Positions 15,495-17,228 of a stretch of DNA of 56,323 nt are shown in pieces; position 1 is the first letter of the stretch; each line of letters opens with the position of its first letter. A model generated the notes under the pieces. That model had not been told where the DNA came from. It made no database searches and saw only the letters and a program-made list of their open reading frames with translations. The stretch is taken from the NCBI GenBank assembly GCA_000252525.1, contig JH611156.1, forward strand, positions 497,503 through 553,825, in the 5' to 3' direction. This DNA comes from SAR86 cluster bacterium SAR86A (GTDB lineage: Bacteria; Pseudomonadota; Gammaproteobacteria; Magnimaribacterales; D2472). Position numbers and translations under genes: made by a program.

Positions 15495-15896
15495 TTATAG
15501 ATATGGTTGTATCTCTCCACCAGAATTAATCCACTCATCAAAGCCCCCAATATTAAATACATTAGGAAATCCTAATTCGATAAGTGTTTTTCCAGCTAGA
15601 GCGGATCTATATCCACCAGCACAATAAACTAATATATTTGTATTCTCTTTTATTTCAACAGGGTTGTTAGGTGAATTTGGTGATAATTTAAATTCAATAA
15701 GACCTCTTGGAATATGAATAGCCTCTTTTATAAGTCCATAATTAATAACTTCTGACTCTTCTCTAACATCGATAATAACTGTCTCTTTATTTTTAATAAA
15801 ATCTATTGTTTCTTCAAAAGAAAGTCTTGGTACCAGTTCATTAGCTTCTTTTAGGAAATCATCTAAACTTTTATTTTGCACGAGCTTCTCCCTCAA
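15495..15896 (-). CDS. Rhodanese-domain protein
   Basis: This single-domain rhodanese of 133 residues has the active-site loop VYCAGGYRSALAG (Cys near residue 92) and the CH2A-like stretch VIIDVREESEVINYG. Such proteins move sulfane sulfur or act as thiol carriers; no signal peptide is present, so it should be cytoplasmic. The GGYRS loop is common in single-domain rhodaneses of unknown partner. The start overlaps the end of the DMT permease gene by 26 bases, so the two are likely co-transcribed. Confidence 0.9.
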   Translation of the reverse strand: MREKLVQNKSLDDFLKEANELVPRLSFEETIDFIKNKETVIIDVREESEVINYGLIKEAIHIPRGLIEFKLSPNSPNNPVEIKENTNILVYCAGGYRSALAGKTLIELGFPNVFNIGGFDEWINSGGEIQPYL

Positions 15897-16752
15897 GCTT
15901 CTTAATTTTTTTAGAAGTTGCTAAAAATACTCCAATCAATATTGTTGCGCAACCAACTATTACACTTAGAGTTATTAGCTCATCTAAAAAGATATTTCCC
16001 CAGATGATACCAAAAACTGGTAAAAAATATGCCACTGTTGATGTTTTAACAGCACCGATTTTTTCAATTAACCTCACATATCCTAAAAAAGCTAAACCAG
16101 TTGAGACACCACCTAACCATGCAACAGATAAGAAGGCATCTGATGAAGGCATCTCAGGCGGTAAATAAAACAATGTAACAGGCATCATAATAAAAGCACT
16201 AAAGATTATTGACCAACCTATCAACACAAGCTTATTAGTTTTTGCTGAATTCTTTTGAATAAAAACTGTTGAGAATGAGTAGCAGGCTGCACCCATTAAA
16301 CAAAAAACTGCAGAAATAATCGATGTTGATGATGACTCAGGATTTACCAAAATTACAACTCCAATAAATCCCATTATTAAACCAGTCAACTGTTTTATTG
16401 TTACATCTTCTTTTAACCAAAAGTATGCAATTATCATAGTATTAAAAGCTGTAGTTGCATTTAATATTGCAAGCATGTTTGAATCTGATCCAAAACTCGC
16501 TAAAGAAAACATAGTAAAGGGAATTGCATTATTAGTAATAGCTAACAACATAGAGTGCTTCCATATTGGTCTTAACTGGTTGAGGTATTTTTTTCTTAAT
16601 AAAACTGGTATGAAAATTAATGAAGCGATTATTAATCTAGCCTGTACAAGTGGAACTGCACCAAATTCAGGTGCTGCAACTTTAATAAAAATAAATGCAC
16701 TACCCCATACAGCACCAAGTAAAGTTAATAATGCCCAATATCTTAATTCCAT
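15871..16752 (-). CDS. DMT-superfamily (EamA) permease
   Basis: This integral membrane protein of 293 residues has about ten hydrophobic helices and two EamA repeats. The first starts LLTLLGAVWGSAFIFIKVA and the second begins near residue 148 (ISAVFCLMGAACYSFSTVFI). Family members export amino acids, nucleobases or other metabolites, and the substrate cannot be read from sequence. The U-tract of a strong terminator ends only 10 bases before the ATG. Transcripts from upstream must read through it, or a promoter must lie inside the hairpin; attenuation control by the structured leader is plausible. Confidence 0.9.
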   Translation of the reverse strand: MELRYWALLTLLGAVWGSAFIFIKVAAPEFGAVPLVQARLIIASLIFIPVLLRKKYLNQLRPIWKHSMLLAITNNAIPFTMFSLASFGSDSNMLAILNATTAFNTMIIAYFWLKEDVTIKQLTGLIMGFIGVVILVNPESSSTSIISAVFCLMGAACYSFSTVFIQKNSAKTNKLVLIGWSIIFSAFIMMPVTLFYLPPEMPSSDAFLSVAWLGGVSTGLAFLGYVRLIEKIGAVKTSTVAYFLPVFGIIWGNIFLDELITLSVIVGCATILIGVFLATSKKIKKLEGEARAK

Positions 16753-16762
16753 AATTTAAAGT

Positions 16763-16790
16763 AAAAAAAACCCCCAATTTAAATTGGGGG
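16763..16790 (-). terminator. Strong intrinsic terminator in front of the DMT permease
   Basis: A perfect 10-base arm palindrome CCCCCAATTT/AAATTGGGGG (16771-16790) is followed in the minus direction by eight T (16763-16770). On the plus strand no T-run follows, so it acts on leftward transcripts only. Confidence 0.9.
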
Positions 16791-16966
16791 TTAACTAACT
16801 ATTGTTTACTAACAAGTTGTTAGCCGGAAATCAAAAGCATACCCCTGTCAAAAGGTAAATCCTCCGTTTCCTGTTGTTTTATAAATACTAATAGGACCAC
16901 CTCCATGTTCAGGGTAGTAATAAAATATCTAGCAATCCCCTTAAAAAATTACTAAATAAGACACCA
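16763..16966 (-). ncRNA. Uncharacterised structured RNA or attenuator leader
   Basis: The gap between two minus-strand genes holds a candidate RNA of about 200 bases, with a TATAAT just upstream (16973-16978) and a perfect terminator at its end. A nested hairpin can be traced by eye (RNA sense). UACCCUG (16916-16910) pairs with CAGGGGUA (16847-16840). Within it GAGGU (16903-16899) pairs with ACCUU (16856-16852). At the top UCCU (16896-16893) pairs with AGGA (16872-16869). A CUAAC/GUUAG hairpin follows before the terminator. The GGGGU of the outer helix could instead pair with ACCCC at the terminator base, the usual logic of a switch. It matches no 6S, SRP, tmRNA or familiar riboswitch consensus I can recall. 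Confidence 0.6.
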
Positions 16967-16972
16967 AACTTA

Positions 16973-16978
16973 ATTATA
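16973..16978 (-). promoter_or_regulatory. -10 box for the structured RNA
   Basis: TATAAT on the minus strand. A TTTACA lies upstream (16991-16996) but at a 12-base distance, too short for a standard -35; a weaker TTTATT sits at 16 bases. Confidence 0.45.
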
Positions 16979-17015
16979 TACACTCAGTTATGTAAATAAA
17001 GTTATTTTTATGATA

Positions 17016-17228
17016 TTAAAATGAAAATTCTAGCTGCGACTTAGGTTCAAATGCTATATGAGCAATTGAGCTGTTATCAATTACGTCTTTATCTTTTAAA
17101 TATTTGTCTAAAAGGCATATGTCATTACTAAAATATTTGAAAGCAATCATTTTTTTTGCAGATTCTTTATCAACAGAAGAATTATATTCAATCAATATTG
17201 GATCGTTAATGTGAATTATTTTACTCAT
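17016..17228 (-). CDS. Small hypothetical protein, 70 residues
   Basis: No family is recognised. The sequence is hydrophilic, with no signal peptide or membrane helix: it starts MSKIIHINDPILIEYNSSVD, has a Lys/Asp-rich middle (LDKYLKDKDVIDNSS) and ends PKSQLEFSF. Its stop is about 40 bases upstream of the promoter of the structured RNA. It lies 37 bases downstream of the 198-residue membrane protein in the same direction, so it may be the last gene of that operon. Codon use looks like that of the neighbours. Confidence 0.5.
   Translation of the reverse strand: MSKIIHINDPILIEYNSSVDKESAKKMIAFKYFSNDICLLDKYLKDKDVIDNSSIAHIAFEPKSQLEFSF

Follow-up and report, generated by a model that had tools for sequence, protein, structure and literature searches.

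A single-copy structured RNA gene of the SAR86 order, most likely a new RNA family, with a 14-codon frame whose translation may be functional

The gap upstream of an EamA/DMT permease gene in a 56,323-nucleotide stretch of DNA from SAR86 cluster bacterium SAR86A (the window) carries an RNA that most likely represents a real SAR86 RNA family, of a kind bearing a short open reading frame, which is new in that it is present neither in Rfam nor in the literature searched. As read from sequence, it is a free-standing RNA gene of the SAR86 order, producing a terminated transcript with a translated mini-ORF in which translation itself would be the functional event; this reading is given a probability of about 0.5. 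It is supported by the order-wide single copy, the open frame, the complementarity to 16S rRNA, the conserved P1, pseudoknot and P3 structures, and the changing neighbours. The unusually strong ribosome site and the conserved frame with its rare AUU start codon suggest that ribosome passage, rather than a bound metabolite, is the mode of action. If this is true, the RNA would be a new family and a clear, testable case of regulation by mini-ORF translation inside a free-standing RNA gene. SAR86 bacteria are abundant in the sea, and the genomes searched are without Hfq, and in families f1 and f4 also without CsrA. The literature searched, mostly outside subscription journals, contains no description of SAR86 small RNAs or riboswitches. 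The features of the locus are collected in Table 1.

Table 1. Features of the RNA locus and the gene downstream of it, in window positions.
Feature	Positions	Strand	Details
Promoter	16973..17000	(-)	-35-like TTTATT 17000-16995; -10 TATAAT 16978-16973; from sequence
RNA gene	16763..16966	(-)	5' end inferred, placed by the -10 box; the U-run is the 3' end
P1 hairpin	16926..16958	(-)	arms 16958-16947 and 16937-16926; loop ends AAGGG
Pseudoknot 3' strand CCCU	16911..16914	(-)	partner strand: P1-loop AGGG, 16941-16938
Extended Shine-Dalgarno GGAGGUGGUCC	16894..16904	(-)	complements 16S 3' tail GGAUCACCUCC, one G-U pair
14-codon ORF	16848..16892	(-)	AUU to UGA; ISIYKTTGNGGFTF, then stop
P3	16826..16871	(-)	GGAAA 16871-16867 with UUUCC 16830-16826; encloses P4 and the stop codon
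P4	16840..16857	(-)	UACC 16857-16854 (codons 12-13) with GGUA 16843-16840 after the stop; RNAalifold and single-sequence fold
P5 hairpin CUAAC/GUUAG	16795..16823	(-)	arms 16823-16819/16799-16795; predicted in the window
Intrinsic terminator	16763..16792	(-)	arms AACCCCCAAT/ATTGGGGGTT; eight U at 16770-16763
EamA/DMT permease gene	15871..16752	(-)	Pfam EamA 2.3e-33; follows the RNA in f1 and f4

By blastn, 27 of 60 relatives have the RNA, and among them is a second family of the order. A covariance model located it in 137 of 203 SAR86-order genomes, many of the scanned genomes being incomplete and the large searches using stricter filters, and in 35 of the 40 genomes of high quality. These copies cover 21 of the 22 genera and all four families (f1 to f4; the window belongs to f1), at one place per genome. 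Run on a sample of 369 genomes of the class, the same model gave no match outside the order. When 84,980 species, each represented by one genome, were scanned for an exact pattern, 69 loci came back, and in every case the title names SAR86, Gammaproteobacteria or Proteobacteria. The pattern that picked these loci fixes the Shine-Dalgarno together with codons 1 to 4; the loci from blastn or the covariance model were not picked in this way and keep both motifs with small changes. A viral origin was rejected, viral contigs containing no match to the pattern. There is no covariance-model match in 5 of the 40 high-quality genomes, and the RNA went undetected in several near-complete SAR86 genomes; it therefore seems to be dispensable.

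The TATAAT box, nested hairpin, CUAAC/GUUAG hairpin, terminator with eight U and 10-base gap between the U-run and the EamA ATG (16752) that had been described in a sequence-only reading of this DNA are all borne out by the sequence and its predicted folds. The TTTATT/TATATAAT block of the promoter is conserved in the alignment of the genus, and a loose TANNNT match lies within the 24 nt that precede the 5' GTC in 92 of 92 distinct loci, which is weak alone in such AT-rich DNA. A terminator-like hairpin and U-run are present in the 88 distinct sequences scanned, with a mean dG between -12.8 and -19.1 kcal/mol depending on the family. The transcript is most likely terminated, with a predicted length of about 200 nt in f1 to about 230 nt in f2. 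Against dinucleotide shuffles the whole 208-nt RNA has a folding z of -2.70, with 1 of 200 shuffles as good. Folding energy alone proves little, because the 161-nt part without the terminator reaches a z of only -1.39, and it was dropped as proof of an RNA.

Comparative sequence evidence, in the form of conservation in relatives and covariation in P1, instead establishes the RNA as real. At fixed coordinates, with no fitting to each sequence, 94.2% of the cells are paired across 46 distinct arm pairs and 12 base pairs, compared to 34–46% when the arms are slid and 73.3 ± 1.3% when they are shuffled (0 of 500 shuffles reach the observed value). Double changes are seen at 10 of the 12 pairs, and under constrained folding a helix of at least 9 bp forms in 89 of 89 sequences. 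The covariation by which the earlier reading proposed to judge the RNA is strong in P1. The G-rich P1 loop pairs with a CCC-type strand to form a pseudoknot, which has 4 to 6 of its 6 positions paired across the sequences examined; f4 has GAGA/UCUC in place of GGGG/CCC. Further 3', P3 has at least 5 consecutive pairs in 67 of 88 sequences, its fifth pair being seen as AU, UA, CG, GC, GU and UG, and the g14-type sequences (GAAAAC/GAATTC) fall outside its register. P4 in f1 pairs better with its own partner (-8.88 kcal/mol) than with those of other sequences (-7.08 kcal/mol), and f2 and f3 show no difference of this kind. At the position of P5 the relatives have, by eye, a hairpin of other sequence. 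An additional 3' hairpin with the loop (A/G)G(U/C)UGAGAU(A/G)C is present in 18 of 19 f2 and 7 of 8 f3 sequences and in none from f1 or f4. A helix between the Shine-Dalgarno and CCUUY, proposed by RNAalifold as sequestering, fits f1 and f2 and on inspection breaks in f4 and part of f3, and is not claimed.

Three features were overlooked in the sequence-only reading: the pseudoknot, an extended Shine-Dalgarno and the AUU-started frame, the last two of which give the strongest signals. The most conserved part of the RNA is GGAGGUG(A/G)UC, complementary to the whole single-stranded 3' tail of 16S rRNA, which in the window's genome (G000) ends in GGATCACCTCCTTA. This complementarity is kept in all four families, with both A and G pairing at the one variable position, and the f4 sequence AAGGAGGUGAUCC, compared with the 16S end of G000, complements it perfectly over 13 bases. 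The motif GGAGGTGRTC occurs at three places in the window's genome, which are the 16S complement, the RNA, and one other site within an apparent coding stretch. Conservation of this kind, and the location of the sole other non-rRNA copy, would also suit a ribosome decoy, in which the RNA ties up the 16S 3' tail and lowers initiation, much as RNA polymerase is occupied by 6S RNA, and the ORF would only keep the trapped ribosome cycling. Such a decoy is rated unlikely, having no need for a stop-free 14-codon frame or for the P3/P4 helix, and some near-complete genomes gave no match to the RNA. A low probability is also given to a decoy initiation site by which free 30S subunits would be sensed or limited, built from the full-length 16S-tail complement and an AUU start beside a pseudoknot; in a streamlined bacterium lacking Hfq, the RNA would then do for translation what 6S RNA does for transcription.

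The frame that follows the Shine-Dalgarno starts at AUU or AUC and always ends in UGA. It has 14 codons in all but one of the 64 distinct sequences (63 of 64); the exception has 13, through a 3-nt deletion that is the only indel within the frame. The other two frames contain stops in 47 and 59 of 62 sequences. Permutation of letters within columns over codons 5–7 gave a stop-free set in 1 of 20,000 trials, in a test that ignores relatedness. An extension of the frame upstream of the AUU is excluded by the spacing between Shine-Dalgarno and AUU, which varies in steps of one. Part of the ORF lies in RNA helices, so that conservation of the frame could be partly structural. The putative product has an I[SN]I-type start, in most cases a glycine at codon 8, and a fixed length and stop, traits that would suit a bioactive peptide of 14 residues, encoded by an mRNA whose fold tunes how it is translated. 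Its residues vary widely, however, the last being F, S, A, C or I, and in a BLOSUM column-shuffle 14 of 400 shuffles reach the observed value, which is marginal; the peptide explanation is accordingly rated improbable. In these alignments constraint appears to act more on the frame than on the peptide, and the weak constraint on residues points to translation rather than to the peptide sequence.

Translation as the functional event could proceed as follows. The pseudoknot, whose CCCU strand ends a few bases upstream of the Shine-Dalgarno, may gate or position the ribosome site, and the long Shine-Dalgarno would enable 30S subunits to initiate at the weak AUU. The 5' strands of P3 and P4 are within the last codons of the ORF and the UGA is in the loop, and a ribosome crossing the ORF would be expected to melt both helices. 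Selection would then maintain the translation event and not the loosely conserved peptide, for instance as a readout of initiation or of ribosome state that alters the fold or stability of the RNA. In f1 and f4, where the transcript may also be an EamA leader, ribosome transit could alter read-through of the terminator.

No Rfam 15 family matches the window RNA above its gathering threshold, and none of note does so at permissive E-values; the RNA in two relatives (L024 and L026) is likewise without a match over threshold. The leads MicC, Arrc14, ncr1575 and RsmY were rejected, being below threshold and mostly driven by the terminator. The Rfam comparison thus agrees with the earlier reading, and 6S RNA, tmRNA and SRP RNA are ruled out as identities for this RNA. 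The 6S match of the genome is elsewhere (C2:331207-331379), as is tmRNA (C1:43417-43762), with no tmRNA match in the RNA. There is no RF00169 match here, and the lack of a match in several near-complete genomes is unlike an essential RNA such as that of SRP. The 92%-complete genome G000 itself has no match to SRP RNA (RF00169) and none to IF3_N (PF05198) at E 0.001, likely due to missing sequence or divergence; a change in IF3, if true, would bear on the use of AUU starts.

Hfq (PF17209) is absent from 60 of 60 SAR86-order genomes searched. CsrA is absent from 36 of 36 f1 genomes and from the f4 genomes searched; every f2 and f3 genome searched has it. Neither protein is therefore a likely partner here, and an Hfq-dependent trans-acting sRNA was rejected. 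A CsrB/RsmY-type sponge for CsrA, to which several GGA motifs and a weak match to the RsmY model (E 0.063) might point, is very improbable, since the RNA and its GGA motifs persist in the f1 genomes without CsrA.

Among known systems, the dual-function sRNAs SgrS/SgrT, RNAIII/hld and Spot 42/SpfP are similarly free-standing, terminated and structured with a short frame, which in SAR86 is putatively translated. The enterobacterial examples use Hfq, which the SAR86-order genomes searched lack, and these sRNAs have AUG-type starts and are not known to have a complement to the full-length 16S tail or a pseudoknot near the Shine-Dalgarno. In the rpsO leader, as in the SAR86 RNA, a pseudoknot is placed next to the ribosome binding site, a hairpin loop pairing with the strand just upstream of the start site. 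The SAM-II-like motif of marine alphaproteobacteria has the same design (PMC2704228). Unlike in either of these, the SAR86 pseudoknot precedes a 14-codon frame and is tied to no single downstream gene. Extended Shine-Dalgarno motifs are reported to direct non-AUG starts in Staphylococcus aureus, at cvfC1 (AUU), ccpN (AUA) and infC (AUA), and an upstream ORF in that species regulates its gene (PMC13009471). These sites share with the SAR86 RNA a long Shine-Dalgarno directing, putatively in SAR86, an AUU or AUA start; they precede ordinary proteins on mRNAs, whereas the SAR86 frame belongs to a gammaproteobacterial gene for a structured RNA.

The neighbours of the RNA differ between the families. 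In f1 a small conserved protein is mostly upstream and EamA is downstream on the same strand, and the downstream arrangement is the same in f4. In f2 the gene after the RNA is usually convergent and cupin-like, and where it is on the same strand it is sometimes panB, a phosphatase or others; f3 has a convergent SDR downstream and a DASS-type transporter upstream (functions in f2 and f3 by eye). Since a convergent gene is usually downstream in f2 and f3, gene order across the order shows the RNA to be a gene of its own, with the link to EamA belonging to f1 and f4. The earlier reading had proposed a new attenuator or riboswitch for an exporter, or a new small RNA, and favoured control of the permease by read-through. 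A structured, conserved RNA outside Rfam stands, and its placement in f1 and f4 does allow read-through into EamA. The view of it as, in essence, an attenuator or riboswitch for the exporter is not supported: EamA follows only in f1 and f4, f2 and f3 mostly have a convergent gene after the RNA and its terminator, and one f4 genome has EamA with the RNA undetected.

Leader-peptide attenuators have a short leader ORF overlapping a hairpin, then a terminator and a downstream gene, and the SAR86 ORF in f1 and f4 resembles this arrangement. It differs in lacking a run of codons for one amino acid, and in many SAR86 copies the terminator is not followed by a co-directional gene. A cis-acting leader for EamA, either an upstream-ORF attenuator or a riboswitch, would work through translation opening P3/P4, the freed G-rich strand then pairing with the 5' arm of the terminator to allow read-through. 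The short distance to EamA in the window, and its position directly after the U-run in some f4 genomes, are consistent with this. Likewise, of eleven f1 and f4 genomes without a significant RNA match ten are also without a close EamA homologue, yet this joint absence may reflect deletion of one block or missing assembly. The antiterminator pairing itself does not co-evolve. The switch suggested earlier between CAGGGGUA and ACCCC at the terminator base can form in the window, but across sequences the own duplexes average -6.69 kcal/mol compared to -5.93 for cross-sequence pairs (sd 2.9), and CCCCC-type sequences pair with their own arms no better than with arms of another type. Runs of GGGG/terminator pairing are longer than in letter-shuffled controls; the switch was rejected despite this, and no conserved alternative pairing of terminator and antiterminator, as expected of an EamA attenuator or riboswitch, was found in these comparisons. 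As a general explanation the cis leader is unlikely, and in f1 and f4 attenuation of the exporter may be a secondary role, alongside the function of translation preferred for the RNA as a whole.

The small protein that immediately precedes the RNA at most f1 loci has 70 aa (17016-17228 of the window, minus strand) and belongs to no Pfam family; a similar short ORF with an AF.YF motif is found in f4. In three f4 loci (L138, L139 and L141) the 3' arm of the terminator and the U-run are directly before the EamA ATG, and the GAGG of this arm could serve as the Shine-Dalgarno of EamA.
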